NCBI RefSeq assembly: GCF_010093815.1
Contig: NW_022985552.1
Span: 372,001-436,000, forward strand
Origin: Pseudovirgaria hyperparasitica
Lineage: Eukaryota > Ascomycota > Dothideomycetes > Acrospermales > Acrospermaceae
Direction of reading: 5' to 3'
Length of the DNA stretch: 64,000 nt
Part shown: positions 10,666 through 41,370 of the stretch, in pieces
Layout of the letters: every line of letters begins with the position of its first letter
Numbering within the stretch: the first letter of the stretch is position 1
The notes under the pieces: generated by a model
The model's database searches: none
What the model saw: only the letters and a program-made list of their open reading frames with translations
What the model was told of the DNA's origin: nothing
Program-made: the position numbers and the translations under genes

Positions 10666-10696
10666 TTATTAGTTAAGGGCTACCCTTAACTAATAA
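10666..10696. repeat. Palindrome P1 (LINE A, 3' side)
   Basis: 31 bp: a 14 bp arm TTATTAGTTAAGGG, a CTA loop, then the exact reverse complement. It lies beyond the end of the reverse transcriptase region. Confidence 0.95.
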
Positions 10697-10699
10697 TTA

Positions 10700-13600
10700 G
10701 GGTTCTCCCGGGGTTCTTCCGGTATATATCGGGTTACTACCGGCGTATACCGGGTCTCTTCTAGTATATATTTCCGGGTCCACTAGTACTAGAGGAGTAG
10801 TAGATATATAAGCATCTATTAGAAGACGTCCTTAGGGTACTTATTAAGCTATTATATAATATTAGAGGTTCTTATCGTATAGATAAGCTTCTACCTTTAT
10901 ATATAAAGATCGGGGTATATTATAAGATAGTAGCGTATTATACCTCTCCGGCCGCACGCCTTATACTATAGAGATACGTTAGGGACGCCTCTCTTATAGA
11001 GGTAGTATAGAAGTCCTATAGCGCCCGTTCGGGCTTAGAGGAGTATAGATACCTAGGCCTTTATAAGCCCTTTATATATCTATTTACTCGGCTCCTTCTA
11101 TGGTTCTCGGATCTACTCTAGGTACCTATCCTACTAGGAGGCCCACTAGGCCCGGAGTATCTCTTTCTACTTATCTTAGATCTATAACTATATACTTCGT
11201 CCGAGCTCTTAAAGGCTCTATTAGTCTAGAAGGGTATCTAGATTATCCTTAATCTCTTATACTACTTAGTTCGAGTCTATTTCTATCGGGCACTTATACC
11301 GTAGTCGAGTCCGGCCTATATATAAGAGTACTTAGTAGTATACGCTAACTCGCGCGCGTAGCGCGGCGAAGGTATATTCTATATTTTCTATACGTTCCTA
11401 TACTTATTATTTAGTAAAGTATACTACCCTCTATATCTAGTAGAAGTTATATATACTTATAACGTCTATCTCGCGTTATAGTAGTACCATATTAGTAGCT
11501 TTATATACACCTAATATAAGACGGAGTATACGGTTCTATATGGATTCGAGCTTTATTTACCTAGTCTATATAAGGGCCGTATACTAGTACTCGTGTCTAT
11601 ACGTGAAGGCGGGTCGTACTATAGATATATATAGCTAGCGTGCCTTATCCCGGGTAGTTCTCTATATAGAGGCTATAATCCGTTATATAGCGGCTTCTAC
11701 CTAGAGGGCCCTAGAAACGGTGTATGTTACCTATGGTCCCTATTTAAGCTTATTATTAATTATAACGCTAAGTACGCGTATGCTTTATGTCGGCGGTTCG
11801 TTAAAGGCGTCTATTCTAGGGCGTCGCTTGCCTTCCCTAGTAGCCTATTTCCTACGGCGGTTAATGAAGTACATGAGTTAGTACTTTTCGGGGCGAACTT
11901 TACTCTATAGCGCTTTGCCCATTAGACGTATCTCCCGTGGTCTTATTCGAGTCGTCTATATGTTTAGCTAGTATTATTATCGATAGCTAGAAGGTATATA
12001 TCGTCTACGTATCCTACTACCTCTATATATTATATTCCCTAGAGGAGGTCTATAGTAAAGAAGAGGAAGAGAATCGGGGAGATAGTACTTCCTTATAGGA
12101 TGCCGTAAGCCGTCTTCTCGTACTCACTTTAATATCTAGAGATATATATCTAGGTAACTCTTTCGGCGAGGAAGGACTATATAAACCGCGTAATCTACGC
12201 GGGTATACGTCTCTTCCGTAAGTTAAGATGAGTCTCGTGTGGTTTACTTTATCGAATACGCCGGCCATATCGAGGGAGAGTAGCGTTACTATACGTCCCT
12301 ACTTCTATACGGTCTAGACGACTTTAAGGATGTATTAGATAGCGGTAATTAGAGAGCTTCTAGCCTTCGCCTTCTGGTTTACTAGGAGGAGGTTATGTTC
12401 CTATACTACGGCGCTTATCTTCTTCGCGATCATGGCCTCTAGTATCTTCCCGAGATAGGAGAGGAGGGTAATTAGCCTCCATCCTTTCGGGGAGCTAGGG
12501 TTCTTCTCTAGTTTCGGGAGTATAATAGTATAGACGGCCCGGAAGCTTTGGGGGTGGTATCCGTTCTTAATACATGCTTGAAATATATAACTAATGAGCG
12601 GTAGGGTAGCTAGTATAGTGCGTTTAAGGCACCTATTCGGTATCCCATCCGGTCCGGGTACCTTGTTATTCGGGAGTACTTTAACGGCGTCGAGTATATC
12701 CTCCTTAGTAACCTCTTAGGGGATATCGATTACGTCTAGGTATTTAGTATTATTAATATCTAATAGGTCTACTAGCTCTAGGAGGGGGAATATAACTTTA
12801 CGTAAGATCTCCGTCTTCTCTAGGCTTATAGAGTATATCCTCTCTTAGTATATTAGGGGAGGCATTAGTGGCGGCGGTGTCGGCGCGTCTATACCCTTAG
12901 CCTACTTTGCCATGCGCTATAGCCCTACGGCTTACCGTGTATGTTTATCGGTAATTATACGCTATTATTTTCGTCGTTTATTACGGAGGGCCCTATCACG
13001 ATATCGCACTACTTCCTTCTACTCTTCCTAGGCCTCGGTCGTCCGGATATAGTATACACGTATATATAGTCTATGGGCGTCTCTTCTATACTCTTATATT
13101 TAAGGTATACCCCTCGCTTCTAGGGGTCTATACGTTCGGTATAGTACGTGTTTATCTCTTATGGCTTAGTATGCTTGAAGGAGGACTTGCACGGCCTTAT
13201 CTATGGCTGGGCCGTTAGATACGTCGACTATAGAGGGGTCTAGAATTACTAATTCTAGGTCCTCTAGGTATTTATCCTAATTAGTATCCTTCTATAGCTA
13301 TTTCCCATATTATTCGTTAAGAGTGGAGACGTCTATTACGGTTTCCATGCATTCGTGGTCGGAGTCCGTCTATATCCGGCTCGGGCGGTAGTACTATACT
13401 CTATGGCTGATGTGCTCGGTAGCGAGGGTAAGGTCGAGCGTAGACCCGTTCTCGTCCTATTTATATTTCCTCTAGGTAATCTACCCCACGGGTATAAGGA
13501 GATATAGAAAGTCGTAGTACCGTATATATAGTTCCCTTACTCTAAGTTCTTCTCTCGCGATGGCTAGGCCTCCCTACTACCTATGGTAGAGATTAAAGTC

Positions 13601-14130
13601 GCCTAGGAGGATATATTATCCCGGCGTCGTGGTGCCCTCGAGTATATTATCTAGCGTGAGCGATCGCTATTAATTATAGATATTATAGATATAGAGAGGC
13701 CCTATACTTATCTAGAGATATAGTGTTATCTGGAGGTCATTACGTTCGGTATAAGACCATTCTAAGAGCGGGATCGACTTGTGTATATAAAATATAACTC
13801 TCCTGTCCGGGCCCGTGGGGTGGATGGTATAGTATCCTAGGTATGTTGTTAGCTTGTTAGTTTAGTAGTGTTTATATAGTTCCTAGATAGCTATTATTGC
13901 GGCTCCTATCTCTTCTAGGAGCGTCGCTTGGTTTTCTTGTTTATGTTATACGTTCGCCTATATAATAATAAGTATATCTTATACCCTTATTAGGTGCTAG
14001 GGAAAGTTCGAGTCTATATGTTAGTGGCGCTAAGGCGTGATTATCCTCGCGCGGTAGCGGCTTTAAGTATACCCTAGGGTCGGCCTATCTTTCTCTATAT
14101 AGTATGCTATTACGCGTTGTCCTCTCCCCT
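10700..14130 (-). pseudogene. LINE A ORF2: endonuclease and reverse transcriptase
   Basis: ORF2 of the LINE makes the enzyme that nicks the target and copies the element RNA. Landmarks on the minus strand: the endonuclease motif ILLGDFN (GDFN codons at 13592-13603), an open stretch at 12268-12050 with AGVFDKVNHTRL and LRGLYSPSSPKE, and GYVDDIYLL, whose catalytic YVDD is at 12000-12011. The part left of about 11,400 lies where RNase H would be expected in this clade, but I could not confirm its residues. Stops are frequent and match CAG/CGA/TGG codons lost to C-to-T change. End coordinates are approximate. Confidence 0.8.
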
Positions 14131-14139
14131 TTAGGGGGT

Positions 14140-15470
14140 GGTTACCGGATTTATAAGTAAAGTTAGGGATAGCGGCGAGGGTAGCGAGGGCCTTATAGCT
14201 TAGTATATCCACCTCGCTTCTCTTGTCTTTATCGCGTTAATATATTCTACGACCTACTTATGTTTCGTGCACGTTACTAACTAGGATAGGTGTTTCCCGT
14301 CGTAGTTAGAGTACTTAGCGGTGTCCCTATCTCGCGTCTCGTCGCTCTGCGTCTTATAAGGGCATTCCTTAGTGTTATAGCCCTATTTATACCACCTATA
14401 GGCGGTCTTCTAAGAGTACCTCTACCTAGTATACCCATATCCTTAATAGTTAAAGCATTGCGTTATTACCTATGCCCTATCCTATGGTTCCGCCGTAAGT
14501 AGCTCTCCTTCGGCTAGGAAGCCCTCCTACATTATCCTATAGGCGAGAGCAGGGTCCCTAAGCTCTACTATTATAGTAGAGTACTTTTTCGATTTTATCT
14601 TGATTCTCTAGACGTTCTTCTACCACGCCTTCGCAATCTTAATCCTAGGGTACTTTGGTTTATTAGATTGCTCTATTTACTTAATATCGTCTTCTCCGAT
14701 GACGTGTCCTTAGATAGGGATAGTATATATCTATATTAGGTACGTGGTTACGCGGACGGACGCGCTAGAGAAGATATTATTAATCGCGTTCGGGTCGCGC
14801 GAGATAGTCTACTAGGCCGTATTAGTAGTGGTAGTTAGTACTATACCTCCTAGGGTGAGTTTAGCGGCCACCATATTTAACTATATCCCTTTCTATTCGT
14901 TAATCTTATTTATAATATCCTTTAGGGACGCTTACTAGACTTATACGAGTACTTCTTTATTCTAGATAGTAACTTATATACTATATACCCCGTCCGTGGG
15001 TGCCCTTAGTGTTTTAGCTAACATGGCTGTTCCGCTTATAGGTGCGGCGACCTATGCCCACGTACTAGGGCGTTTTCCCTGGGTAAGGCCCTCCTAGATC
15101 CTCTATAGGCTGGCCTCTATGCGATCTAGTCTAGATTCCGGGTCTAGTTCCGGCGCCTATTTTACTCCTACGGTAAGCTCCCTAATATTCCGGATAAGGT
15201 TCCGGAAGATACTAAGGAGGGCCGTTTCTCCCTTCTCGACTTCCCCCTCTACACGTACTACCTAGTAGTTAATCTTATCCGGGAGGGTCTCCCCGGGCAG
15301 GGTCCCCTCCGTCTCTATTATCTATAGCGTTATACGCCCTTGGTTATTCGTCGTTTATTAGACGGGGGTTTAATCGTCCTAGGATATACCGCTATATAGC
15401 CGTTTCTACCATACTAGTGTTAGGGGTATACCCGGTGGAAGCCGAGGTACGTCGGTGCCTAAGGCCGCTA
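14140..15470 (-). pseudogene. LINE A ORF1: gag-like RNA-binding protein
   Basis: ORF1 lies upstream of ORF2 on the minus strand and starts just after the 5' palindrome. In LINE B the corresponding start reads ATG GCG GCC TTA GGC at 41103 downward; in LINE A the ATG itself is mutated. Near 14290-14420 a basic, cysteine-containing stretch resembles the zinc-knuckle region expected at the end of ORF1. RIP-broken. The boundary with ORF2 is approximate. Confidence 0.6.
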
Positions 15471-15473
15471 TAA

Positions 15474-15504
15474 TTATTAGTTAAGGGTAGCCCTTAACTA
15501 ATAA
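15474..15504. repeat. Palindrome P2 (LINE A, 5' side)
   Basis: Same arms as P1 with loop TAG (CTA on the minus strand), directly upstream of ORF1 on the minus strand. Confidence 0.95.
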
Positions 15505-15746
15505 AAGGGGGTTAGCGTGTCGGCGTTTATTAGATGTAGTCTATGCTCGTGTTATCGAAGAGTCTTCGAGCGTATATATATAGTATCTCTATACGTTAGT
15601 ATCGTCGCGTATTATACGCTATACGTACGCACGTGTGTCGGAGGTTATTATACTTGGTATACTCTATCATTTGATGTATGTAAATCGCTGTTTTACCCCG
15701 AATTGACTAGTTTAGTCCGTTAGGGTATAAGAAGTTGTCTAAATTC

Positions 15747-15761
15747 CGCGTTAAGAGGATA
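15747..15761. repeat. Target-site duplication of LINE A, right copy
   Basis: Exact copy of 10416-10430. A0 sequence resumes after it, collinear with A1 from about 18840. Confidence 0.95.
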
Positions 15762-16934: not shown

Positions 16935-17280
16935 TGTTATAGCTATAGTAGTAGTATATACCATGTATAATTAATATAGGTAGTTACAAACCGGTCGTTT
17001 ATATAAATATAACCGACCGGATATATATATAGAAAATAGTATACTTTATAACTAATATAACTTAACTTATTAATAATCTTAATAAAGTAGTAGCTAAAAA
17101 CTAGTATCTACTAGTTCGTATACTTCGAACACTAAGTCCTCTTTACTAGGCTATCTTAGTTAATATAGTAATAATAGAATAATCGCTAGTTTAAGTAACC
17201 TCCTCCTTACTATACTACCTATACTAACTACTTTATTATAGGCTAGTAAAGTATCCTTCTTCTAGTATATAGCACGAGTA
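16935..17280 (+). mobile_element. 5' end of another LTR element inserted in A0 (runs into gap)
   Basis: Collinearity of A0 with A1 and A2 breaks abruptly at 16,934, within the reverse transcriptase. The new sequence starts TGTTATAG, a canonical LTR start, keeps some CA/TG (accatgtata, ttacaaaccgg) and so is younger than A0. Its family and length cannot be determined because it enters the gap. A copia-type element is possible but unproven. Confidence 0.5.
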
Positions 17281-24819: not shown

Positions 24820-26962
24820 ACGCCTATTAGCCTATAGTCTATATTACTATTATTTTACCCTTAGGTAGCACGTGTAGATACGGAGGTTATTAGTTAAGGG
24901 CTACCCTTAACTAATAATCGGGGTTCTCCCGGGGTTCTTCTAGTATATATCGGGTTACTACCGGCGTATACCGGGTCTCTTCCGGTATATATTTCCGGGT
25001 CTACTAGTACTAGAGGAGTAGTAGATATATAAGTATCTATTAGGAGATGTTCTTAGGGTACTTATTAAGCTATTATACGATATCTAAAGTCTTTATAATA
25101 TAGATAAGCTATTACTATTATATATAGAGGTTAGAGTATATAGCTAGATAGTAGCGTATTATACCTCTCCGGCTATATACCTTATACTATAGGGAGGTAT
25201 TAGGAACGCCTCTCTTATAGAGATAGTATAGAAGTTCTATAGCGCCCGTTCGGGCTTAGATAAGTATAGATACTTAGGCTTTCGTTAGCCCTTTATATAT
25301 CTATTTACTTAGTTCCTTCTATAGCCCTTAAATCTACTCTAGGTACCTATTCTATTAGAAGGTCTAGTAGATATAGAGTGTCTCTTTCTACTTATCTTAA
25401 GTCTACGACCGTATATTTTTTACGAGTTCTTAAAGACTCTACTAGTCTAGAAGAGCGTCTAGGTTATCTCGGACTTCTTATACTACTTAGCTAGAGTCAG
25501 CTTCTATTAAGCACCTATACCGTATTTAATTCCGGCCTATATATAGGAGTGCGCGGTAATATATACTAATTTATATATATAGCGCGGCGAAAGTATATTC
25601 TACGTTTTCTATATATTTCTATACTTATTATTTAGTAAAGTATACTACCCTCTATATCTAGTAGAAGTTATATATACTTATAACGTCTATCTCGCGTCGT
25701 AGTAGTACCATATTAGTAGCTTTATATACGCCTAATATAAGACGGAGTATACAGTTCTATATAGATTCGAGCTTTATTTACCTAGTCTATATAAGGGCCG
25801 TATACTAGTACTTATGTCCGTATATAAAGGCGGGTCGTACTATAGATATATATAGCTAGCGTGCCTTATCCTAGGTAGTTCCCTACGTGGAGGCTATAAT
25901 CTATTATATAGCGGCTTCTATCTAGAGGGCCCTAGAGACGGTATATACTACTTATAGTCCCTATTTAAGCTTGCTATCTAGTATAACTCCGAGCGCGCGT
26001 ATACTTTATACTAGTAGTTTATTAAATACGTCGATTCGGGGGCGTCGTTCGCCTTCCCTAATTACCTATTTCTCTTAATAATTAATAAAGTGTATAAGCT
26101 AGTATTTCTCTAGGGCGAACTTTACTCTATAGCGTTTTACCTACTAGAGGTACCTCTCGTAGTCCTATTCTAGTCGTCTATACGTTCGGTTAGTATTATT
26201 ATTAATAGCTAGAAGGTATATATTATTAGCGTATCCGACTACCTCTATATACTTTATTTCTTAAAGAAGGTCTACTATAAAGAAGAGGAATAGAATCGGA
26301 GAGATAGTACTCCCTTATGGGATGCCGTATACCATCTCTTTATATTTACTCTAGTACCTAGGGATATATATCTAAGTTATTCTTCCTATAAGGAATAACT
26401 ATATAAAGCGTATAATCTATTCTAGTATTCGTCTTATCCGGAGGTTATGAATAAGTCTTATATAGTTTACCTTATTAAACGCTCCGGCCATATCGAGGGA
26501 GAGGAGCGATACTACCCGTCCCTATTTCTATGCGGCCTAGACGACTTTAATAATATATTAGATAGCTATTATTAGGGAGCTATCTATCTTTACCTTCTAG
26601 TTCGGAGGGAGGAGATTATATTCCTATACCGCGGTACTTATCTTCTTTACTATTATAGTCTCTAGTATCTTATCTAGATAGAAGAGAAGGGTAATTAGTC
26701 TCTATCCCTTTAGGGAGTTAGGGCTCTTTCCTAGTTTCGGGAGTATAATAGTATAGATAACTCGGAAGCTCTAGAGGTGGTACCCCTACGTGACGTATAC
26801 TTAGAATATATAAGTAATAAGCGGTAGGGTCGCTTTTATAGTACTTTTTAGGCATCGATTTAGAATTCCATCTAGTCCGGGTGCTTTATCATTTAGGAGT
26901 ATCTTAATAATATTAAGTATGTTCTCCTCCGTAACTTCTTCGGAGATATCTACTATATATAG
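24820..26962 (-). mobile_element. LINE B, 3' half (Tad1-like, minus)
   Basis: It is collinear with LINE A from about 10590 to 12740, so it covers the end of ORF2, including the reverse transcriptase, and the 3' palindrome (24887-24917). The last ~160 bp of the LINE 3' end are missing because A1 adjoins. The sequence breaks at 26962 where the D LTR begins and resumes at 38401: placed side by side, the two sides align with LINE A without gap, with atag repeated at the junction. RIP-saturated and inactive. Confidence 0.85.
24887..24917. repeat. Palindrome P3 (LINE B, 3' side)
   Basis: Same 14 bp arms and CTA loop; collinear with P1. Confidence 0.95.
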
Positions 26963-27334
26963 TATGGAAGGCCGCTCCTGTAGCCCTACATGTATGTGTC
27001 CCTAGCTCGATCATATGGCTCATTGTATATTTAAGGAGGGCGTTTTCCTTGGTCATTCTACATGACACGCTTCCACCATCACTAATATTCGACGATTCGA
27101 CCTTTCCTTACGTTCATGGGCCTCTATGGGTATTGATTATTAGGCTTAGCTATTGATGAATTGATTAAGAGTATTATATAGACCCGTCCTATCGTAAAAG
27201 AGAACTAATAAGAAGTCGTGCGTTCAAAGAGAACTTATAATACCTAGGAGAGATACTTGTGAGTTCGTCGCGACTACTATACTAAGGACACAGCCATTTA
27301 TAAAAAGGGACATACGTGGCGATAGCTTATCATA
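26963..27334 (+). repeat. 5' LTR of element D (372 bp)
   Basis: It matches 38029-38400 in length and order. It contains a TATATTTAAGG promoter-like box near 27029 and keeps many CA/TG dinucleotides. Confidence 0.93.
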
Positions 27335-27838
27335 ATTTTAGAGGTCGTACCTAGACTACGAACTTATAGGGGGAGATTAGGACTCCGAAACTAGCTTAGG
27401 GGAAGTATATGGCGTGCCTAATAAGGTAGTCTAGACTTACTAGATCGAAGCCACGAGTCCGGAAAACAGGGAGTCCGGAGTCGCTAGGGGCTAGCCTCTT
27501 AAAAGTAGCCGTAAAAAGCATGCGCATGCTAATACGGGTGATAGCGCGACTCGAAAATGTCTTAGGGGAATAGGATATAAAACAGGGCCAGATGAAGCAG
27601 TAAAGAAGAGTTCAAAAACGATAAATATAACCTGTTTAGTGCTGCTATAGCTGTTATTCACAAACACGGCTACACGAGTATACCACTTTAGGAACGCCTC
27701 ACACGAAGATAATAATATAAGTAGGATACCGTGAACCTTATATTGATAAAGACGATAGTGATAGTTCATCTTATAAAGGGATTAATCAATATGGAGAAGG
27801 GATGATGGGTGTTATGGGTAGACGTATTGGGCTAACCT

Positions 27839-27863
27839 TTAGTTAAGGTAATCCCTTGACTAA
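27839..27863. repeat. Palindrome P4 (element D, upstream of gag)
   Basis: Imperfect 25 bp version (ttagttaagg ... cccttgactaa, two mismatched pairs) in the D leader, about 130 bp before the gag-like start. Confidence 0.75.
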
Positions 27864-27989
27864 TAACCTTACCCCCAGCGTCTCCACTGGCACACCTGCT
27901 GCTAGTAATGGTGCGATAGGAGCTTAAAATAACGACCTAGTAACTCGTAGAGAGATGCTTAACTTCTTCGTAGCATTTGCGCGATAAGG

Positions 27990-30420
27990 AAGGATGGTAC
28001 CTCTATCCACCCTAGCCCCCGAGCGCTTTGAAGGAATAAATATTACGGCCTTCCTTCGGAAGTACGAGGACATATATATAAACTACGAAGTTCCGCCTGA
28101 TAAGAAGATAACCTCCCTACCGTTATACTACGAGGACTATCTCCGTCCTGCCATTGAAGGAATGGGTGGGTTTTAGAAACAGTAGTAGACCACGCTACGT
28201 GAAGAATTATTAAAGGAATTCTCTCTATTTGACTCCGCCCTCGAGGAAGGCACCATCTACTTTATCCGAAAATACGTGGAAATGGTTAAAGTAGACCCAT
28301 TCTACTCTCTCCCTATGTACTGCTCCCGGTATTATATTATCACGGAGAAACTTACGGCTAAAGGAAGCCTAAGCTCGTATTCGCGAATAGAGCTCTTCCT
28401 AGAAGGGCTGCCTAATAGTCTTAAGGCTCGGGCTATAGAGAAATGTTAACTCACGATGGAAGCATATAGTTACGACTAGGTAATTATCTATGACTTCGTA
28501 TCACGAAAGGCTAGAGTACTTAAGGAACTAGCTCGTATTAATAAGCACTCAGCCGCACAAGAGCTGGCTATAGCCATATACTATAAATTAAAGATAGGGA
28601 GTAAGAAGACCAGCTTAGAAGAGCAGTCACATGAAGAAAGAAGAACTAATGAATTTAGCCACCCCTCTCTAGTCGAAGTATACGTCGCGCTAGAATCGGA
28701 TAAGTTTAACGAGATAGTAGAGAGATTTAGTAAACTAGACCTCACGTCAATTAAGATGAAGTCCTGCTTTACCTCTGATCCCTTATTCTTATCCCTTAAG
28801 AAGTACGAACCTAAGCTGCTTTCGGCTATTATTAACTAGTAGGCGCGAAGGCTAAATCTTTTAATACACCCCTAAGTACGAGGCATGCCCATGGAACTAA
28901 CGTAAGTTTACCCATAGAATTATATATAGAATAGAGAATACGTCTCTACCCGAGACTCCTAAGGAGGCGTTATGGCCTAGGATAGGCCTCGAAGACCGAT
29001 CGTGTGTATTACGTGCGGAGGAGATTACCTAATATATAGATGTCCGGAGATGGTAGAATATATTAGAGACGGATTACTAAATGTTAACGGGGTGCGAGTG
29101 TTCCGAGGGCGTTTCAGGGCGAACAGAGAAGAAATCCCATTACTACCCTCCTCGGTAGGGCTATAAGCTACCCTATAAGCTATCCAGAACTACGTAGTAA
29201 CGGTTTAAAACGGCCTAAGCTAGTACGGAGGGGGAGTGAAGGTTTCTACGTCTATAGTAAATATTAACGCTTCATGGGGAGTGCCGGTATATAGTATTAG
29301 TATAAAACCTACGAAGGGTCCCTACTAGGCCTTGGCGGACAGCGATTCGGAAGAAGAAGTCACGTCGCCCGAGAGTAAGAAAGATAGATATATAGAATTC
29401 CACGAACGCTTCGACGTGGCTAGTAATAGATATATCCACGAGGAGATAGCCCTGGAAGAGCCCGCTATGCTCGTAATATCTAGAAGGGGGATTACGAAGA
29501 GTATACCTAATTATACTAAGGAAAGAAAGATCGCCCGTCTCCGCGGAATGCGTGAAGGGTAGTATATAAGGATTATCGAGGAATAGGAGGACGGCGAGAA
29601 GAGTAGCGACTAGAGAACGTCTAAATAAGAGCTAACGGCGTCTAAGGATAAGATGGATGAAGGGGATGGCCTAAATCCTAGTTAAAAGGCACGTATCCGA
29701 GGCGTTAAGCTTAATGACTATCTACGCGAGGGATAGCGGCTGAGTATAGAAGCTAGCGAAGCATAGCTAGTGCGCGTTCTAGGGATAACTATGAATATTA
29801 CCATTAGCGAACTATTAAGTCTTAATAGCGACTTACGTCGTGCGGTGTTCGAGAAGGGCGCCCCCGACTTTATAGCTAGAGAGGTCCGCGAGGCTTAAGA
29901 GGAGAGAGCCGAGAAGAAAGGAAGAAACGACCATGCCATGGCTTCTAAGATAAATAAACTTAACGTATTAGCACCCCTCTATGCTACGGGGACGGCCATC
30001 ACGTAACAAGATATTAATTAGCTTAAGGAAGGGATAGTAAGGCTAGTGGCCGAGTGTCTAAGGTACCCCGTGGAAGTTAGTCCTAAAAGGGCGACTAGTA
30101 TAGTACTATTCAATAGTGGCGCGCAGGTAAATAGTATTCGACTAGATGCTACGAGGCGTCTCAGGCTAGCGATATCTTCGCTTCCACCATATATAAAGAA
30201 CTCGAGTTTAGTTAGCGCTACTTAGTATAGCACTCCATTCATGGGAATAGTATAGTAATACCCCATCCGTATAGGTCGGATCGTTACGGCCACTTCGATA
30301 TTCGTATACAGCGAACTTAATCATGACCTTATCCTAGGGGAGCCATATACTAGGTAGGCCTTACTTACGGTGTAGAGGTTAGCCTCTAGGTAAGTACTCT
30401 TAATAGTCCACTCCGCATAT
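27990..30420 (+). other. Element D gag and protease region (fossil)
   Basis: Gag-like start around 27994 (TLAPERFEGINITAFLRKYE), a zinc-knuckle-like cysteine cluster near 29006-29046, an acidic stretch (ADSDSEEEVTSPESKKDRY) near 29332, and a retropepsin-like region near 30090-30360 with SGAQVNSIRLDA and DLILGEPYTRQALL. Known for the family: Gag packages element RNA, and the protease cuts the polyprotein. Recognisable only in parts; broken. Confidence 0.75.
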
Positions 30421-30546
30421 GGATAAGAACGTATAACCTTCGAAACTAGTCCGGACGAGTATATTCTGGTCTTAGAGAAGGAGGGTAACTCCGTGGCTAG
30501 AGACTAACTATATAGCGGAGTATGTTGCTAGAAGCCGGAGTTAAGC

Positions 30547-30585
30547 CGGATTATTAGTTAAGGGCTACCCTTAACTAATAATCCG
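30547..30585. repeat. Palindrome P5 (element D, between protease and pol)
   Basis: The longest example: 18 bp perfect arms around CTA. An ATG at 30592 follows it by six bases. Confidence 0.95.
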
Positions 30586-30591
30586 CACTAA

Positions 30592-33500
30592 ATGGGGTCC
30601 GGTGAACCCACTAACGAAGGGGATAGGATATATTTTTATACGGATATAGAAATGAGTTATATAGAGTTGCTTTCCGAGAAAATCCGGCCTAAAAATGTTA
30701 CTCGGTTGTCGAGAAAAGATGACTTAGCCGCCCTAGTTACGGCGGTAAGGTACGCTGCCTTCGTATATAAATAAGGCACGATAATAGAACGGCTTATAGT
30801 AGGCTCCACCGGCCTCTAAAGACGGTATTCATCCGGGGTATTAAAGGGATTTAGTATAGCTACCATATATAAAAGAAAGGGAGTTAAAGTACACCCCGTA
30901 GATGACTCCGAAGCCCACCGAAAGGTCCCTAGGAATCTATTAGGGTATCTAGACTAGCGTGAACGAGTAATCGCACGGTAGATACTTCTTCCAGCCGTCT
31001 ACCTAGGCCTTAACGCGTTTAATAGGCTAATAGAGCCTCGAAGGGTAACTATCCCGCTAGGAACACGTCTAACGCCTCTACGTATAAGTTAGCTAAAGAT
31101 TAGAATAGAGCTACGTCCCGCGGAACTTAAGTTACTATATATAATCTTATTATATCGCGAGGAAGTACTAGCATGGGAATTCTTATACCTTAGTAAATTT
31201 AATAAAGAGGTGGCACCTCCGTAGGAGATCCGAACGGTGGAACATAAGGTATAGTAGGCTAAGAACTTTAATATTCCTAGAGCCCTTTATAGGAAGGTAC
31301 TCACGATCCTAAAAGAGCGTCTTAATAGTAGAAGGCTCGAGCCCTATAGTAGTCCTTATCGAAACGCCTATTTTCTCGTGGAAAAGAAGAAGGAAGCTAA
31401 TAAGGAACGAGATTATAGGTTAATTAATTCGGTGATAGAAATCAACCGAGTCACTATTCGTAATGCGGCCACGCCGCCCTCGTGTGAAGAATTCTTAGAG
31501 CACTTTACGGGGATGGCCGTCTTAACGTTTACCGACTTCTTCTTAGGATACGATTAGATTTCATTAGTAGAGCATTGCCGAGACTTAACGGGGTTTATGA
31601 CGCCCCTAGAATTACTACACGGGATAATATTACCTTAAGGGGCCACTAATTTAGTAGCTTAGTTCGTTAGGATCATGTTAACTATTATATAAGAATATAT
31701 CCCGGAGAGGGCTCTACCATTCCTAGATAACTTAGGCATTAAAGGACCTACGATGAAATATAACTCTAAGGAGGCCCTACCTAGAATTTATAGGTATATC
31801 CTAGAATATTTAATTAACGTGGATAAGGTTCTCGCGGATATAGAGCGCGCCGGATACGCCCTAAGTAGTAAGAAGACTCAGTGGTATATTAAAGCCGCTA
31901 ACGTTATAGGATACGTCTACGGCATTAAAGGGAGGCGACCGAGTAGTAAAAAGGTTACTACTATTAGGGACTGGAAACCCTATAAAAACACGACGAATGT
32001 ACGAGCCTTCCTTGGCGTTTATACATATTTCCGGATATGGATCCCCGGGTACGCTATTATCGCATCGCCGCTATTTACACTATTAAAGAATAAATCGGCC
32101 TAGTAGTAGATAGCTAAGGAGTAGACCTCGATGGACGCGCTAAAGATAGCTCTAACTACTACTCCCGCACTAATAATGTTACGGTACGGGACAGGTGCGG
32201 GAGATATAATCCTAGTAGTAGACTCTAGTAACGTTAGGTGGGGGGCTGCGTTAATGTAGGAGAACGAGGATCATAAACGTTAGCCATCGCGGTATAATGG
32301 AGGAATGTGGTTAAAAGCTAAGAGAAACTACGACACCGTGAAACTAGAGTGCCGAGCCCTCCTCCACGCGTTATAGAAGTTCCGGTAATATCTCTATAGC
32401 ACGCACTTCATTATAGAAACAGACGTGAATACTCTAGTCGCTTAAATCAACCGTACCGTAACTAACTTACTAGGGGCGCTCGTTACTAGGTGGCTCGCGT
32501 GGATTTAGCTATAGAACTTTATAGTTAGGCATGTACCTAGGAAGCGTAACATAGTCGCCGACGGCATCTTACGGATGCACGAAGGAGAAGAACCACCAGA
32601 CGTCCCTACCTTTAACCTAGACGAGTTCGTGGATATAGCTCTATGTATAGACGTGCTAGAGACGTCGTTAATCAAGCCCATTAGCGGGAGAGATTACACG
32701 ATAGGGATACTCGACTATGCCGCCATTAAGTCTCCCTTAATAGATGAATATAGCGATAAATGGTAGAGGATTACGAAGTATCTTACTACACTCGAGAGGC
32801 TAACCGACCTAACCGACCGAGCGTATAAGGCCTTTATGACCGACTGCCTAAAGTTCCTCGTGCGTAACCGAATACTCTGGCGGAGAGGAGATGGGTATCG
32901 CTAATATACACGAGTAATTAAGGATCCGAATACTAGGGCGTGTATAATTACTACCACTCACGACGAGATAGATCATAGAGGTAGCGAAGGGACCCTCGGA
33001 AGGATTAAGGATAAGTATTAGTAGATAGGTATGCGTAGAGACGTGTGATAGCACGTGAAAACCTATAACGAATATTAACGACGAAGTAAGCTCCTCGGAG
33101 GTCTTAATAAAGGGCTCTACCACGTTATAACACCTATTCTTTAGTAAAGAATATACTTAGACGTAACGATACTACCACCTTCTATAGGGTATAGTAAAGT
33201 AGTATCCATATAAGAATAGCTAAGCGGATGGACTAAGGCGGAGGCATGTACGGCGGCCACGTCTATAGTCGTCGTAAAGTTCCTCTTTAAGAACGTGATC
33301 TATAGATACGGAATCATTCCTAAAATTACCTATGACGGTGGTAGAGAAAATATGGGTGCCATAGAGGAGCTCCTCCGACTCTATAGAATTTATTAGAAGG
33401 TTACGTCTGCGTATAATCCCCGAGCAAATAGGATTATTAAGAGAAGTTTTATACTACTCGCTAATGCTCTCGCGAAGATAACTAATGGCGGATTTAAGAA

Positions 33501-34140
33501 CTGGCCTAACCACCTCCATGCGGTCGTCTAGGTAGATAGAATAACGACACGTGCTAGCATAGGGTATAGTGCCGCATACCTCGTGCTCGGCCATGAACCA
33601 ATCATGCCTATCGAAGTCGAATTTAAGTCGCTCCGAATGCTCCCTTAGGACGAGGTGCGATTAACGTCCGACTTACTCGCTCTTCGAGCTAGATAACTTA
33701 AGAGAAGATCCGAGGATCTTAAGGAGGTCTATGCCCACGCGATACGAACGCGTAAGGAATCAAGAGAGGCATGGAATGACGACTATCACCTTCGTTAAGA
33801 GTCGTTACTAGTTGATACGATTATCCTCCTATACGACTCGCAGCGACAGAAGGATATAGGGCGAAAGCTAAGATAGCATTAGAGGGGGCTATACAGAATC
33901 TAGTCCGTGTTTAATTATACTTATAAGCTCGCGGAGCTTGATGGAGCCATGCTTAGAGGGACGTTTCCTAGCCATAGGTTAAAGAAATATTTCATGAGAA
34001 ATGCGAGTAACGAGAGTTACGACGAGCCCTCGCGACCACCGATCGGAAGAATTACCGAGGAAAATAAGAGAGTGGCGATAAGGAAAACTATCATAAATAA
34101 CTCACGGAATACCTCGACGACGCCACATGAACCCGGGTAG
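30592..34140 (+). other. Element D pol region: RT, RNase H, integrase (fossil)
   Basis: The region begins directly after the second palindrome. Gypsy reverse transcriptase is recognisable at about 31340-32100 (INSVIEINRVTI, ALPFLDNLGIKGP, VRAFLGVYTYFRIWIPGYAI), RNase H at about 32100-32560 and integrase at about 32850-33780. The integrase C-terminal module (YKLAELDGAMLRGTF, HRLKKYF) is at about 33910-34000. No chromodomain was seen. Broken fossil. Confidence 0.8.
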
Positions 34141-34254
34141 AAGTGGTGATTCCTACTCCGTAAGGCTTTAATAGAGAGGAATATTTGCGTTTCCCTAGAA
34201 TCGATATCTCCTTCTAGGGGATAGAAGTTTTTTTTAAGGAGGGAAGGGATGCTT

Positions 34255-34850
34255 GTAAAAGTAGTCTCATGACGATGAACTCCATTATCGAAAGAGGATG
34301 ATAAACCCCATTATCACTATAAAATAATAAAACCCATTATTAAAGTAAGCAATGCTCGAAAGAAGACATAATGGCGTTTACGCGAAATTCCACCCACCAC
34401 ACATTAAAACCGGTCGTGTAATCAAAGCCCACCCATCGAAGGCCTATTTCGTTACTATGGAACGGGCCCCGTTAGGAACTAATAAGGAAGAAAAGAAGGA
34501 GGAGATATAAGAGAAAAAGATACTTATAGGAAGTCTTATGAGGATGAGAATATACCCGGTATCTATTTATTTATAGATTCCGCCATATACCCGGTAGACA
34601 CATTCATTCATAGATTTCCTATGTACCCAGCATATATTTATTCACAGATTTAACACGTATACGGGCCTACGGCCGTTGGCAAGGATCATTTATAAAAATC
34701 ACTATATACCCGGCATTCGAGGAGGCATAAAAAGAGAACTTAAGATAGTATATAACTCTTCCCTCTTACACCTCTCCATACCTCCTTAATCGATAAAACC
34801 TCCTCCTCCACTTCCGCCTCGCTCAAACCACCTCTCCTTAGAACGTAACT
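34255..34850 (+). promoter_or_regulatory. Non-coding stretch of D with tandem repeats and promoter-like leader
   Basis: Three imperfect ~36 bp units start tatacccggt at 34551, near 34586 and near 34623, with a partial fourth near 34703. They are followed by a TATA-like tatataac (about 34750) and a long pyrimidine-rich leader with ctcttccctc and cctccacttccgcctc. That is how fungal polymerase II promoters and 5' leaders look. It sits upstream of the extra coding-like region of D, which may therefore have had its own transcript. Confidence 0.45.
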
Positions 34851-37779
34851 CGCCGATAGAACTAATAATAATAATAGCCCCGCCGAAGAAGAAAACGCCT
34901 ACCCGTGAAGAGTCATAAGATCGTTAAGTACTAATAAGATAGACGCGGTCCTAGTTAAGAGTCGTGAGTGCTAAAGTAGGGCCATCGACGGCTATCGTGG
35001 TATCGAGGCCATCTACTACTCCGCACGGATAGGCTATAGAAGCTACGGAAATAAATGAGTCCACCATTAACCGAATCATCGCCATCTAGGACCCGCAAGA
35101 GCGATAGGACTATATTCTAGACACGTTTAATAATCTCCTTTATATTACCAGCCTCGTAGAATAGCTCTTAAGTAGTATAGTTAACCTCTTCTAGGAAGTA
35201 GGAGCCGCAATAGGGTATAGTAAGGTAAAGATTAACTCCTCTATTCCGAAAGAAGTCCACGAGATGATTCGTCGTGGAAGAGACACCAACTCCCGCATCC
35301 TAAAAGCCAAAAATGCGATCCTACAAAACTAGCGAAAAGACCTCCCTAATAATAACGGCCAGTCACTCTAATCCGCCCTTGGACAGCTCTAGTAAACATA
35401 GAACTTCATGGAAAAGCTAGTAGCGCTCTCACGAGTGCGAACATGGGCGAGAGCGAGGAACTAGTTAAACGTATCCCTATGGTCCTAAATCGGCCAGGGA
35501 CAGAAGGGAAGGGGAATCAAGGCATATCTTTAGAGCTCTAATATCGATGCCGCTCTAGCTAGCGATAGTAACGAGGACGGCCTATCTCTCTAGTAACTCT
35601 CGAACTACCCTAGCCGATAAAATAAACTAACGTTCCATAATAAGACGGGACTTATTATCCCCGCTAGTTAACAGTCACGGATAAGTAGAATGGTTCATAG
35701 GCCCGTCGAACACTACCTATAAATCAAAGAGATAAGTACATCGCCTCCGCCTTAGACCTTACCGTCGCTAAAACCAGCGTAGATAACGCCCGTAGTGAAG
35801 TCCCCTCCACGAAGCACGCCTCCTAGTTTAGTAGCACGTTATCTCTTCGAAGCTAGTCGTCCGTTCGAAGCAAGTATTCCTCCTACCACCACTAGTAAAC
35901 GTCCCCTACCGGGCCATGCGAGAACGTCTTTAGTATCTATCACGGCCACGCCGATAAAACCCACTTACGGACGTGCCTCATCTGCCGGCCCTTAGTAATT
36001 ACTAGGGGCGCCTACATGATAATCCCCGGTTATTCTTAGTTCGCACCCTAAGACGATGGCATCGGTCGAGGAAGAGGACGAGCCTAAGAAGTATTAATAC
36101 GCGCCTTTAGTGACGAAGACTTTTAAGGCAGCTACATTATCAAAGAAGAATTTCACGAGCATTAAGGGAATGGCCCTACTAGTGCGCTGGAAAGCGTAGA
36201 TAGGTAACATGGCTATTCCGTACAAAGTCTACTACAAGCATTGCTAAGACGTGGCTAGAAAGAATGATATACTCGTTAGCGTGTCCCACTTAAACCTAGT
36301 GGCGAGACTTAAAATGGTATATGAGTTTAGAGATAACGTGGGGGCCCTTAAAGTTCATAAGGACCGCTATACCTGGTTCGCGAAGTACGCGCGGCCACCT
36401 TATCCAATAGAGGCATTAGGTATCTATCGTTACCAGGCCCTAGAGACCCCGAAGTAAGTCATTAATATTAAAACCATCCTTACTAGTATCGCATTTATGA
36501 TTCAGAAGGAGGACGGTAGAATAGATAGATAACTCTTCGACGAGTGGGAACGTACCGGAAGTGTTAATATTAAAGGGCTCTTCGAGCCACTTAAAAAGAC
36601 GACCTCTATACTTAATAAGAGTATCCTGGAACTCGCGAGGGATGAATTTAATATGTACAAGTACCACCAGCGCATGTTTAATAAGAAATCGAACTACGGC
36701 TGGCTACGAACTATATACCACTCCTATATCTAATAGTTTATTAGGTAATGCCTACTTTACTAGCTCACCTATGTCGCTCTTTGGCCCGATCTTAACCACT
36801 ATCTAATCTCGTACCCGTACTATGCGAAGTCCTAGGATAGGGGCGATAAGACGGGTTTTAAGCATCTCGATAACGCCATCAATCGAATCCTCGATCCTAG
36901 CGATAGACACGGGTTTAACATGATCTAGGGGAGCATTAGTCTCGACGACAAACGAAGTGACGACTGCACTATAATCGTTCCCCGCTTCTATAAGTTCTTA
37001 AACGAATGGTAGTCGAAGGGTAAGCTCCGCGAGGGGGTTAATCGAAACGGTATAATCACGGCTATTAACGATAAGATCTATAATGCGGACGACAGGAAAC
37101 GATTTGGTCCCTTCGTCCCAGTCCCCTACTAGTCCCTTAAAGTACGTATCTCTAGCCCACTAATAATACACGGCGCCTAGGGTCCCGTAAAGGGTGGAAG
37201 ACGCACGATGCTTCTATAGTATATCGCGATTAGCCCTAATCACATGATAATGGAAGTGCCTGAAATGGGCACATGGGAACAACTCGCAGTAGCTCACAGG
37301 AATTTGACTCCGGGACCCACGTCTCCGTCGGGATTTTCTAATAAATACGGCGCGATTCCTTTTGCCTTCCTAGCCGCAGTTCAACTCCCGAGTTTTAACG
37401 CCGTTAGTAACGCATTAGTCGGCCGTAAAAGATGGGACAGCTAGGAGGTGAAAGAAGAGGCAGCTACGTGGCTTAACGCAAGTCCTTAATAACTTAAAGC
37501 TAAGGTAGACGCCTGGTTTAAGGAGGGCTCGAGGGTATTTATAGAGACCTTTAAGAAAATGGTAAGGTAGGAAAGGCTAGTCTATAGGGATAGATCGTTC
37601 TGGAAGGAATTTAACGAGGCGCGCGCCGCTAAGCGGCCAATTAATTTTAAGAAATTCAAGCCTAACGCGGGCCTAGATAACGTCGAAGAGAACTTCTATA
37701 GATAGGAGAGGCCTAACGAACTATCCGACGAGGAGGAATCTAACCTCTCTAAGATAAGCGACATGATTCTTTAGGAGCT
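34850..37779 (+). other. Extra 3' coding-like region of D, oxygenase-like (fossil)
   Basis: Beyond integrase, D has about 2.9 kb of protein-like sequence that standard gypsy elements lack. Near 36840-36960 it reads TGFKHLDNAINRIL then NMIQGSISLDD. About 100 residues on, near 37165-37210, comes LIIHGAQGPVKGGRR. Near 37244-37444 it reads MEVPEMGTWEQLAVAHRNL and NAVSNALVGRKRWD. The HxD, distal H and following R spacing resembles the double-stranded beta-helix of 2-oxoglutarate/Fe(II) oxygenases. The N-terminal half is proline/serine-rich and unrecognised. The region ends at the gap and is broken. The function is inferred from motif pattern only; an unrelated cupin-like fold is possible. Confidence 0.45.
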
Positions 37780-37849
37780 NNNNNNNNNNNNNNNNNNNNN
37801 NNNNNNNNNNNNNNNNNNNNNNNNNNNNNNNNNNNNNNNNNNNNNNNNN
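37780..37849. other. Assembly gap (70 N)
   Basis: Undetermined bases inside element D, directly left of its third palindrome. Such a hairpin may itself have caused the break in assembly. Confidence 1.
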
Positions 37850-37882
37850 ATTATTAGTTAAGGGCTGCCCTTAACTAATAAT
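37850..37882. repeat. Palindrome P6 (element D, after the extra region)
   Basis: Arms of at least 15 bp around CTG; the left side is cut by the assembly gap. Confidence 0.9.
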
Positions 37883-38028
37883 CCGGGCTAAGGTTTACCC
37901 GCGCCGAGAGGTTTACTAGGGGCGCATTTTATTCGTATTAAGGTCTTTCTTTTGGGCGTTCTTCACACGGTTTCTCACACGGTTACTACACTACTAAGGG
38001 CAGCAGTTCTATGGGCCGGGGAGGTATA

Positions 38029-38400
38029 TATGGAAGGCCGCTCCTACAGCCCCACATGTATGTGTCCCTGGCTCGATTATATGGCTCATTATATATTTAA
38101 GGAGGGCGTTTTCCTTGGTCATTCTGCATGACACGCTTCCACCATCACTAATATTCGACGATTCGACCTTTCCTTACGTTCATGGGCCTCTATAGGTATT
38201 GATTATTAGGCTTAGCTATTGATAAATTGATTAAGAGTATTATATAGACCCGTCCTATCGTAAAAGAGAACTAATGAGAAGTCGTACGTTCAAAGAGAAC
38301 TCATAATACCTAGGAGAGATACTTGTGAGTTCGTCGCGACTACTATACTAAGGATATAGCCATTTATAAAAAGGGACATACGTGGCGATGGCTCATTACA
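38029..38400 (+). repeat. 3' LTR of element D (372 bp)
   Basis: Ends cattaca and is preceded by a purine-rich gggccggggagg tract that fits a polypurine primer. The same length as the 5' LTR. Confidence 0.93.
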
Positions 38401-41370
38401 ATAGATATTTAGCGCCGTAAACGTCTAATAGGTCTACTAGTTCCGGGAGAGGGAACATGGCCTCCTATAGGGCCTTAGTTTTCTTAAGGCTCGTAGAGTA
38501 TATTCTCCTCTAATGTATTAGGGGAGGCATAAGTAGCGGGGGTATCGGAGTATCTACGCCCTTAGCCTATTTCGCCATACGCCATAGCCCTATTATATAT
38601 TATATCTATTAACTAGTAATTATATACTACTATTTACGCCTTTCGTTACGGAGGACTTTATCGCGTTATCGTATCGCTTCCTTCTATTCTTTCTACGACT
38701 CGGGTATTCTTATATAGTATACGCGTATATATAGCCTTCGGGCGTCTTATCTACTTTCCCGTACTTAAGGAATCCCCTTTACTTCTAGGGGCCGGTATAT
38801 TCGGTATAGTACGTGTTTATTTCTCGTATTCTAGTATGTTTATAGGAGTGTCTATACGGCCTAGTCTATGGCTAGGTTATTAGATATATCGACTATAGAG
38901 GGATCTAGAATCGCCGATTCCAGGTCCTTCAGGTACTTTTCCTAGTCGGTGTCCTTCTATATCTATCGTCCCCGTTATTTATTCGGGGTATATACGTTTA
39001 TTATAGTTTCTATATATTCGTAGTCGGAATCCGTCTATACCTAGCCTAGGCGGTAGTATTAGATCCAGTAACTAATATACTCCATAGCGAAGGTAAGGTT
39101 AAGCGTAGACCCGTCTTCGTCCTATTTATGTTTTTTCTATATAACTTATTCTATAGGTGTAAGTAGGTATAGGAAGTCGTGGTAGCGGGTGCGTAGTTCC
39201 CTTACTCTAAGTTCTTCCCTAACCACGGCTAGGCCTCCCTACCATTAGTGGTAGAGGTTAAAGTCTCCTAGGAGGATGTATTACCCTAGTTCCGTGGTAC
39301 CCTTAAGCATCTCGTCTAGTATAAGTACACGTTATTAGTTATATATGTTATATATATATAGAGGGCCTATATCTATTTATAGGTATAGTATTATCCTAAG
39401 GTTATCGCGCTCGGTATACGACTATAATAAGAGTAGTATTAACCTATAAATATAGAAGAGGACTCGTCTTTCTAGTCCTAGAGGGTATATAGTATAGTAT
39501 CCGGGGTGTGTGGTTGGTTTACTTATCTAGTAGTATTTATAGGGTTCCTAGATAGCGAGTATTATGGCCCCGGTCTCTTCGAGGAGCGTTGCCTAGTTCT
39601 CTCTTTTATATTATATGTTTACCTATATAATTTAGAGTATATTCTAGTCCCTTATTAGATACTAGGGAGTATATATACCTATATACTTATTCCTTAGAGG
39701 CGCGACTATCCTCACGCGGCAGCGGCTTTAACTATACCTTTTAGTCGTCCTATCGTCTTCGGAATAGTCTACTATCCTACCTAACTATCTTCCGGAGGGG
39801 AGGTTAGGGGTATTATAAAGGAAGGGCTCGTGGTAGGTATTATATTCTATAACTATCTCGTGCCTCTTACTTTTATCATACGAATGTATTCTATAACCTA
39901 TTTATATTTTATACACGTTAACGACTATAACGGGTATTTCCCGTCGTAGTTTAAATACTATACTATATCTCTATTTCTTAGTCCGTCTCCTCGCGGTTTA
40001 TAAGGGCACTTCTAGATAGTATGGTCCCTACGGTACTATCCGCACTTAGTCTTCTATAAGTACCTTTATATAGTATATCTATACCCTTAATAGTTAAAGT
40101 ACTATGTTATTACCTATACTCTATCCTATGGCTCGGCTATAAGAAGCTCTCCTTCTATTAGGAATCCCTCCTATATAATATATTATATAAGGGCGGGGTC
40201 TCGGAGCTCTATAATTATAGTAGAGTGTTTTTTCGCCGTCGTCTTAATCGCCTATAGGTTCTTCTACCACGCTTTTACGATCTTAATCCCTAGGTATTTT
40301 CGCGTGTTAGATTATTCTATATACGTAATATCCTCCGCTCCGATAGCCTATCCCCGCACGGGTACTACGTATACTATAATCGGGTATATAGCTACCCTAA
40401 TAGACGCGCTAGGGAAGATACTACCTATTGCGTTCGGATCTCGCGAGATGTTTTACTACGTAGTATTCGTTATAGTAGTAAGTACTACCCTACCTAGCGT
40501 AACTTTAGTAGCCACGACGCTTAACTACATTCCTTTCTATTCATTAATCTTATTTATAATTTCCTTTAGGGATACCTATTAGACCTACGCTAGCGTGTCC
40601 TTATCCTAGATTACAACACGTATACTATATACTCTATCTATAGTCCTAGTAGTCCTTAGTACGGTAGCTCCGGGTATTACTATAATCTAAGCCTACGTAT
40701 TAGGGCGCTTACCTTAGAATAGCTCTTCCTAGATTCTCCGTAGGCTAGCTTCTATTCGGTTGAGTCTACTACTAGATTTCTCTTATAGCGACTTCCTTTC
40801 TTCCTCTATAATTCCTCTTAGATTCCGGATAAGGTCCTAGAATATATAAAGAAGGGTCTTCTTTCCCTCCTCGGCGTCCCTCTCTACACGTATTACCTAG
40901 TATTTAATTTTATCTAGGAGGGTCTCCCCTCTCGGGGTCCCCTTAGTCTAGGTTATCTATAGCGCTTTGCACCCTTGGTTAGTTCCTATATTTTAGATAG
41001 GTGTCTAGCTATCTATATTAATGTCGCTATATAGCCGTTTCTACTATACTAGTGGGGGTATATCCGGCGTATACTAGGGTATTACGATGCCTAAGGCCGC
41101 CATGGTTATTAGTTAAGGGCAGCCCTTAACTAATAAAAGGGGGTCGGCGTATCGGCGTTTATTAGATATAGTCCATACTCGTGTTATTAAAGAGTCTTTA
41201 AGCGTATATATATAGTGTCTCTATATATCGGTATCGTCGCGTATTATACGCTATACGTACACACATGTATCGGAGGTTATTATACTCGGTGTACTCTATC
41301 GTTTAATGTATGTAAATCGCTATTTTACCCTGAATTAACTAGTTTAGTCCGTTAGGGTGTAAGAAGTTTT
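38401..41370 (-). mobile_element. LINE B, 5' half (Tad1-like, minus)
   Basis: Collinear with LINE A from about 12740 to 15737: the start of ORF2 with endonuclease, ORF1 and the 5' palindrome. An intact minus-strand ATG (41101-41103) follows the palindrome by two bases and begins ATG GCG GCC TTA GGC, which defines the ORF1 start. The right end falls about 10 bp short of the LINE A end. RIP-saturated. Confidence 0.85.
41106..41136. repeat. Palindrome P7 (LINE B, 5' side)
   Basis: 14 bp arms around CAG. Two bases separate it from the ORF1 ATG (41101-41103, minus strand). Confidence 0.95.

Follow-up and report, generated by a model that had tools for sequence, protein, structure and literature searches.

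Palindromic repeats in other systems

Palindromes within coding sequence are known from Rickettsia (PMC2229807) and from some mitochondria (PMC6649704). The Rickettsia palindromic elements are stem-loop repeats that lie in-frame in protein genes and also outside them, and in the available part of their description the target duplication is marked as unknown (PMC2229807). The subject of this report is a palindrome of 31–39 bp that was found at seven places in two unrelated retroelements of the fungus Pseudovirgaria hyperparasitica: a long interspersed nuclear element (LINE) and a gypsy-like long terminal repeat (LTR) retrotransposon, element D. Both lie in contig NW_022985552.1, within a stretch of 64,000 nt (positions 372,001 to 436,000 of the contig) that is called the window below and whose own numbering is used throughout. 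The palindrome resembles the Rickettsia elements in forming a stem-loop, as judged by a hairpin scan and by folding. Its three copies in element D all lie in one coding phase, as in-frame fusion would give, but repeat-induced point mutation (RIP) hides which stop codons are original. It differs from them, as far as their available description goes, in size (theirs are 105–146 bp) and in setting, bacterial genes in the one case and nuclear retroelements in the other. The shared palindrome is real; it is most likely a tolerated mobile mini-palindrome, and a template-switch joint is a serious possibility.

Several other small repeats invite comparison. Nuclear miniature inverted-repeat transposable elements (MITEs), and the GC clusters and double-hairpin elements of mitochondria, are small palindromic or inverted-repeat mobile sequences. 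As regards MITEs, the present palindrome shows no consistent target duplication (0–4 nt at six of the seven sites, 7 nt at one), though one of 2–3 nt would look like chance; the GC clusters and double-hairpin elements differ in being mitochondrial. Repetitive extragenic palindromic (REP) elements, with 20–40 bp (PMC3733652), are of the same size; they are, however, prokaryotic and, in the part of the source at hand, named for extragenic sites, whereas the copies described here sit in the frames or at the edges of retroelements. Perfect inverted repeats of up to 284 bp occur in the mitochondrial coding sequence of Nematomorpha (PMC6649704); there, according to the accessible part of the account, both arms encode conserved residues, whereas in the window one fixed sequence recurs.

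Hairpins are also known from retroelements themselves. The Conserved Hairpin Site of the fungal GalEa elements (Copia) is a hairpin with a palindromic part, located directly after the 5' LTR; its extended form, 33–62 bp long in five species, is conserved there even across distant families of elements, and its CHSeq1 is mostly CTGATCAGT/CTAATTAGT, as stated in the portion of the paper available (PMC5445492). This site was rejected as a candidate: CTGATCAGT and CTAATTAGT are not in the palindrome and occur at chance level in the window (the main 9-mers only being compared), the nearest copy in element D lies 500 bp past the 5' LTR, and the domain order of D is that of gypsy, not Copia. Stem-loops have been described at the 5' untranslated region (UTR), the end of the second open reading frame (ORF2) and the 3'UTR of stringent LINEs and human L1, in the part of the source consulted (PMC5135761). 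In contrast, an identical perfect palindrome stands here at either end of the LINE and recurs in an LTR element; compared with the 3'UTR stem-loop of stringent LINEs, to which their own reverse transcriptase binds by recognition, the hairpin lies about 235 nt from the 3' end and has a 5' twin and three relatives in D.

The palindrome and its copies

The palindrome reads TTATTAGTTAAGGG-CTR/YAG-CCCTTAACTAATAA and is present in six perfect copies and one degenerate copy, at two sites in each of two LINE copies and at three sites in element D. A first-pass annotation, made from the sequence alone, had reported one palindrome at seven places in two unrelated retroelements, and this was confirmed by a hairpin scan and by motif match. 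The scan covered the whole window for perfectly paired hairpins with arms of at least 11 nt and loops of 0–12 nt. Nine were obtained, namely the six perfect copies and three hairpins with 11-bp arms whose sequence is entirely or almost entirely AT, against 0–2 in ten first-order shuffles. Arms of 14 nt around a 3-nt loop were found at 10666–10696, 15474–15504 and 24887–24917; the copy at 30547–30585 in element D is built as 18+3+18, and those at 37850–37882 in element D and 41106–41136 in LINE copy 2 as 16+1+16 and 15+1+15. These six agree with the positions first annotated, whereas the degenerate copy, annotated at 27839, is placed at 27836–27866, where 25 of 31 positions match if RIP is tolerated, against 22 for the best of six shuffles. 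Outside the seven places the top match in the window scores 21, the same level as shuffles. With up to two mismatches, the 14-nt arm occurs 15 times where 2.4 occurrences are expected, and this number was reached in 0 of 100 shuffles; shuffled sequence does not give the palindrome.

Over 31 bp, the six perfect copies differ only in the loop, and all differences are of the RIP type. The annotated loops CTA and CTG are indeed seen, but they collapse to a single state, CTG (CAG on the complementary strand), from which CTA and TAG arise by RIP. Around the palindrome, the flanks of any two of the five sites agree at 12 of 20 positions at most, with N to the left of the 37850 copy. Folded as RNA, the perfect copies gave −16.3 to −26.5 kcal/mol (z-scores −3.3 to −6.5) and the degenerate copy −14.5 kcal/mol (z-score −3.2). 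Chance, or an artefact of RIP or assembly, is scarcely credible as the origin of such a set, even though the region is AT-rich and saturated with RIP and a gap of N abuts one copy. Shuffles fall far short in arm count, hairpin scan and motif match, by which chance was rejected; the arms include GGG/CCC, and no gap is near four of the five independent positions.

Neither of two palindrome patterns matched any viral contig, and in genome contigs they gave 0 and 3 matching stretches. The three matches, all to the looser pattern, are single palindromic stretches, two in Clostridia contigs and one in another bacterium, which we guess to be chance or terminator-like hairpins. A plasmid search with 51 bp gave no match, Rfam and tRNA scans gave 0, and no tandem-repeat row covers a palindrome. 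None of the literature matches listed deals with the palindrome, to judge by titles and the starts of abstracts, the sequence itself having been sought only as exact arm strings; these gave one match, on a human cancer topic.

Copies in element D

Element D (26958..38402, plus strand) is inserted in LINE copy 2 and is bounded by LTRs at 26958–27336 and 38025–38402 that are 95% identical as aligned by BLAST. The integrase H2C2 zinc-binding domain was matched above its cut-off (E 8e-6), whereas the matches to rve (E 2e-4) and to RVT_1 (E 0.01) fell short of theirs; reverse transcriptase precedes integrase, which is the gypsy order. No family was found for gag or protease, and the regions that we take to be such are labelled after the first-pass annotation and sequence motifs.

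Frames poor in TGA were taken as coding, because RIP at CA rarely makes TGA. One plus frame (position mod 3 = 1) has a single TGA over 27337–34146, where its two alternatives have 28 and 18, and is closed by TGAs at 34147, 34270 and 34276; this is taken as the gag-pol frame. An extra ORF of about 3.4 kb (34349..37779, plus strand) lies between integrase and the 3' LTR, again in a TGA-poor frame, with 1 TGA over 34000–38030, a stretch in which the remaining plus frames have 14 and 10 and the minus frames 15, 9 and 12. It gave no Pfam match in 7 of 10 open pieces of at least 38 residues, a silence that means little because 20 unmended open pieces gave only sub-threshold matches. A search of viral contigs with an open piece of the D reverse transcriptase and another of the LINE reverse transcriptase confirmed no relatives.

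All three palindromes of D lie in one phase, which reads ATT AGT YAA GGG in the perfect copies and translates as (I/F)-S-stop-G-x-P-L-T-N-N. The degenerate copy (27836..27866, plus strand) and the 39-bp copy (30547..30585, plus strand), the latter upstream of reverse transcriptase, are in the phase of the gag-pol frame; the 33-bp copy (37850..37882, plus strand) is in that of the extra ORF, about 140 bp before the 3' LTR. Two of the three therefore appear to lie inside gag-pol and not at cistron boundaries. Their annotated placement, before gag and between protease and pol, was not upheld, as the copies at 27836 and 30547 stand in one long frame and not clearly between cistrons. Such boundaries could nevertheless exist in D, because RIP hides which TAA and TAG codons are original: the gag-pol frame holds 94 of them, or 76% of its Q, W and stop codons taken together, as RIP makes from Q and W codons. 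After the 30547 copy the frame reads CAC TAA ATG, a possible separate start of pol. The 30547 and 37850 copies have TCCG..CTAA in common on their right side, and a 70-N gap (37780–37849) ends exactly at the 33-bp palindrome, as if the assembly had been broken at the hairpin or at a repeat.

The common phase could be explained if the D polyproteins shared a conserved peptide, (I/F)-S-x-G-x-P-L-T-N-N, which might serve as a processing site; the palindrome would then be a by-product. The same in-phase peptide does occur at all three sites, and the degenerate copy retains all residues except the variable one, partly via synonymous changes. The explanation is nonetheless very improbable, as the LINE has the same DNA out of frame before ORF1 and at the end of ORF2, and identity at the level of codons is left unexplained; as the sole explanation it was rejected, since the LINE frames do not read the peptide. 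Identity down to the wobble positions in D and at the LINE edges is what constraint on the DNA itself would give, and the two-fold symmetry over 31 bp would suit a dimeric DNA-binding protein. A sequence-specific site of this kind, or a host palindrome, recruited independently by both elements, is still improbable: two of the three D copies lie at least 500 bp from the LTRs, inside an apparently coding frame, and we know of no such site, although no search for one was made.

Copies in the LINE

LINE copy 1 (10431..15746, minus strand) is apparently full length, as judged by homology to copy 2. It is inserted in the third copy of LTR family A, is flanked by the 15-nt direct repeat CGCGTTAAGAGGATA (10416–10430 and 15747–15761) and has a TAA-rich tail at its left end. 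Copy 2, also on the minus strand, is cut by element D into a 5' half (38403..41368) and a 3' half (24820..26957), the latter abutting LTR element A1. The LINE gave an RVT_1 match above the cut-off (E 6e-8) and endonuclease matches below it (E 0.016 and 0.039); it is presumed to be Tad-like on the label of the first-pass annotation only.

As the LINE is on the minus strand, the annotated order had to be corrected. The copies at 15474..15504 (LINE copy 1) and 41106..41136 (LINE copy 2, its loop not RIPed) are the 5' palindromes, and those at 10666..10696 (copy 1) and 24887..24917 (copy 2) the 3' palindromes. Their placement before ORF1 and after ORF2 holds in that both are coding edges, but ORF2 ends within the 3' palindrome and not ahead of it. 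In copy 1, the 5'UTR (15505..15746, minus strand, by alignment to copy 2) adjoins the 5' palindrome, and 2 nt past the latter comes the likely start of ORF1, which is ATG in copy 2 and ATA in copy 1. In copy 2 this ATG shares the frame of ORF1, and a stop in that frame lies inside the palindrome. The ORF1 frame was read from the phase of transversions between the copies (16, 1 and 1 by codon position at index 750–1000), as was the ORF2 frame; the exact start of ORF1 rests on shared translation, because the first interval (index 250–500) shows no periodicity (8, 8 and 6). The phase at the C-terminus of ORF2 has 17 transversions in 387 positions against 10 in the 774 others, and in it the 3' palindrome begins TAT TAG. 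An alternative frame beside the 3' palindrome is open for 44 and 52 residues and would stop a few codons later. ORF2 is taken to end within the palindrome, because each frame has a stop there as the sequence stands.

These positions bear on the role that had been annotated for the palindrome, a hairpin RNA signal for termination, reinitiation or processing at cistron boundaries. Besides the placing of the LINE copies, ahead of ORF1 and where ORF2 ends, this role has in its favour that the perfect sequence as it stands is closed by a stop in each of the six frames, and that in D an in-frame TAA follows within a few codons of the 30547 and 37850 copies, at 30547 with an ATG directly next. Stops in six frames are, however, not rare, being found in 8363 of 100000 shuffled-arm palindromes and in 2436 of 55599 31-mers of the window. 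The gag-pol of D is a single TGA-poor frame across two of the three copies, and its TAA and TAG codons are of the kind that RIP produces from Q and W codons. The signal for termination and reinitiation in two-ORF LINEs lies at the ORF1/ORF2 junction. The palindrome does not match it in position: the LINE between its two palindromes, including this junction, holds no perfect hairpin with arms of at least 11 nt in either copy, D aside. The role at cistron boundaries fits the LINE and fits D poorly, and it is rather unlikely to be the explanation.

Two side observations concern the LINE ends. The 12-nt CGGAGGTTATTA is common to the 5'UTR (15639–15650) and the flank of the 3' palindrome (10660–10671; E 2.1), and around it there is weak similarity to 24851–24892 (77% over 44 columns, E 0.17); it is possibly a motif of both LINE UTRs, or chance. 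Tandem repeats of period 21 stand beside the 3' palindromes (10711–10755 and 24932–24991), with one frame open as 7-residue repeats.

RIP and the palindrome arms

The nested retroelements are strongly depleted in CA and TG and raised in TA, the signature of RIP, which points to a filamentous ascomycete as host, and the palindrome arms contain neither CA nor TG, as the first-pass annotation had noted. RIP at CA cannot break arms of this composition. Pairing would also persist under saturated RIP, because a CA in one perfect arm is a TG in the other and both change. Paired arms are therefore no evidence of selection, as survival under RIP needs none; the neighbouring 5'UTR is equally unchanged except for RIP-compatible transitions. 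The annotation had offered a choice between few RIP sites and selection, of which the former stands and the latter is unneeded.

The arm sites read TTAA in 12 of 12 cases in the perfect copies and TTGA in one arm of the degenerate copy, and two of the six loops retain CA or TG. A hand calculation favours TTAA as the original state about 12 to 1 over TCAA/TTGA, an uncertain figure that presumes equal, independent RIP rates and leaves out the degenerate copy. Over 30223–31101, all 16 of 16 Q, W and stop codons read as stops, including that of the palindrome and the next one, and RIP could well have produced the TTAA stops of the palindrome there. If the arms were once TCAA/TTGA, stops would be present in only two of the three phases, and the phase used in D is the sole open one.

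Divergence between the LINE copies

Beyond what had been annotated, a divergence breakpoint was found at the 5' palindrome of the LINE. A transition between the two copies was counted as RIP-compatible if, in either copy, it involves a C followed by A or G or a G preceded by T or C (CpG included). The 5'UTR (15505–15736, 232 columns) has 0 transversions and 26 transitions, all RIP/CpG-compatible, and in the 5'UTR with the palindrome (263 columns) transversions and transitions outside the RIP-compatible class both number 0. Over the 1129 columns of 14300–15440, the counts are 119 and 87, respectively. A one-changepoint model over 14300–15736, a stretch picked after the counts were seen, places the breakpoint at 15453..15470 (minus strand; maximum-likelihood changepoint 15453). 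The palindrome starts at 15474, so that the breakpoint lies 4–21 nt from it, on the side from which reverse transcriptase would arrive. Third-position transversions amount to 12.0% in ORF2 and 16.5% in ORF1, values that err on the high side, since the same transversions had served to set the codon phase; free of phase, 163 of 2256 columns (12000–14300) and 119 of 1129 (14300–15440) differ by a transversion. Constraint alone is thought unlikely to have kept the 5'UTR so clean, given 3.9% transversions (46/1185) at the first and second positions of ORF2 against none in 263 columns, which is an argument and not proof.

The breakpoint matches the expectation for template switching of reverse transcriptase at a hairpin and is a hint of it. 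In MGL, a LINE of Magnaporthe grisea, template switching takes place at GCC*A/U beside predicted hairpins; in the available part of that study, no homology is seen where the jumps occur and the motif is judged insufficient (PMC2104539). One GCC*T lies at 15463, inside the breakpoint interval, and recurs at the same place in copy 2, where 0.10 and 0.07 would be expected per 18 nt. MGL is thus alike in its jump sites beside predicted hairpins and unlike in that, within what was compared, it has neither a shared palindrome nor template homology. A further change in divergence near 11758 (interval 11707–12006), within ORF2, was found where 10602–12758 is aligned to 24823–26957, and suggests a further exchange between the LINE copies there. 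The copies look like mosaics with one border at a palindrome.

It is unlikely, though worth serious attention, that the palindrome is a selected or self-perpetuating site of template switching, where the hairpin would stall reverse transcriptase, 31 nt of identity would guide the jump and modules or UTRs would be exchanged between elements. The breakpoint on the arrival side of reverse transcriptase, the restriction to RIP-compatible transitions beyond it, the stability of the six perfect hairpins and the precedent in M. grisea all speak for such a site. Against it, the evidence comes from a single junction between two copies, within a stretch chosen after the counts were seen; two other changepoints, at 10864 and 11758, lie away from palindromes; the UTR/ORF border falls nearly at the palindrome, so that a fast ORF1 beside a constrained UTR could mimic a breakpoint; and the M. 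grisea jump sites, in the part of the study available, lack homology and have a motif that does not suffice. That the palindrome is a joint shared by LINEs and LTR elements for trading modules by template switching, its RIP-proof sequence keeping the joints usable although the genome mutates its repeats, is likewise unlikely.

Origin of the palindrome

The reading to which we incline, tentatively and at a little under even chances, is that the palindrome is a dispersed mini-palindrome of 31–39 bp that has passed between unrelated retroelements sharing one genome and was kept where it did little harm. It would be a selfish, tolerated hairpin, similar to the Rickettsia palindromic elements, and not a signal needed at each cistron boundary. 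Movement may have occurred at the stage of cDNA, where the hairpin would stall reverse transcriptase and template switching would carry the palindrome and adjoining sequence across between elements. The only direct hint of such copying is the breakpoint beside the 5' palindrome of the LINE. In the LINE, copies would be retained only where the coding part begins and ends, and in D only in a single phase of the frames. The placement in D looks like the survival of tolerated insertions because, with arms of TCAA/TTGA, that phase alone of the three would have been open. What is observed directly is that the copies are identical, where they lie, that those in D share a coding phase and that the arms lack CA and TG; that the palindrome is mobile, and that it is copied at the cDNA stage, is what we infer.

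A tiny mobile palindrome had been annotated as the alternative to a boundary signal, and it fits better, but several observations weigh against it. No empty sites were found within the window, which offers two LINE copies and one D copy, and motif match found no copy in the window's other element families, in agreement with the annotated absence from families A, E and F. There is no consistent target duplication: exact direct repeats at the seven sites measure 4, 4, 4, 0, 7, 3 and 0 nt, the last site adjoining the N gap, where a repeat is unreadable, and a duplication of 2–3 nt is indistinguishable from chance. The 7-nt repeat, TAACCTT, brackets the degenerate palindrome (27833–27870); repeats of at least 7 nt occurred at 7 of 400 random control sites, and all seven sites are within the control range. 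If the arms were TTAA from the outset, the D copies would carry an original in-frame stop. The 3' end of the LINE does not repeat the pattern of the 5' end. It has 0 transversions over 10602–10863, past the palindrome, and changes at 10864 (interval 10788–10864), about 170 nt inside ORF2 from the 3' palindrome. The two LINE palindromes have transversions in 0 of 62 columns, and in the 3'UTR 3 of 64 columns have transitions that are not RIP-compatible. The 3' palindrome is thus neither a breakpoint nor specially conserved, because the transversion-free block overruns it and 55% of 31-column blocks over 10602–11300 are equally clean. As a hot spot of template switching, the palindrome is left with one breakpoint at its 5' copy and two that are not at palindromes.

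Neighbouring sequence

The left end of the window, up to about position 8000, is an unmutated stretch with a HECT ubiquitin-ligase gene (2–1669), and the nested retroelements follow. The nearest solved structure to the HECT-domain gene is Ufd4, followed by TRIP12.

Implications

If the reading as a tolerated mobile mini-palindrome is true, the palindrome would be a tiny parasite on elements that are themselves parasites, passing between unrelated retroelements of the nucleus, in a setting that is new for such sequences. If it is also a template-switch joint, it would provide a defined sequence for testing how LINEs gain new 5'UTRs and why RIP leaves the joints intact.

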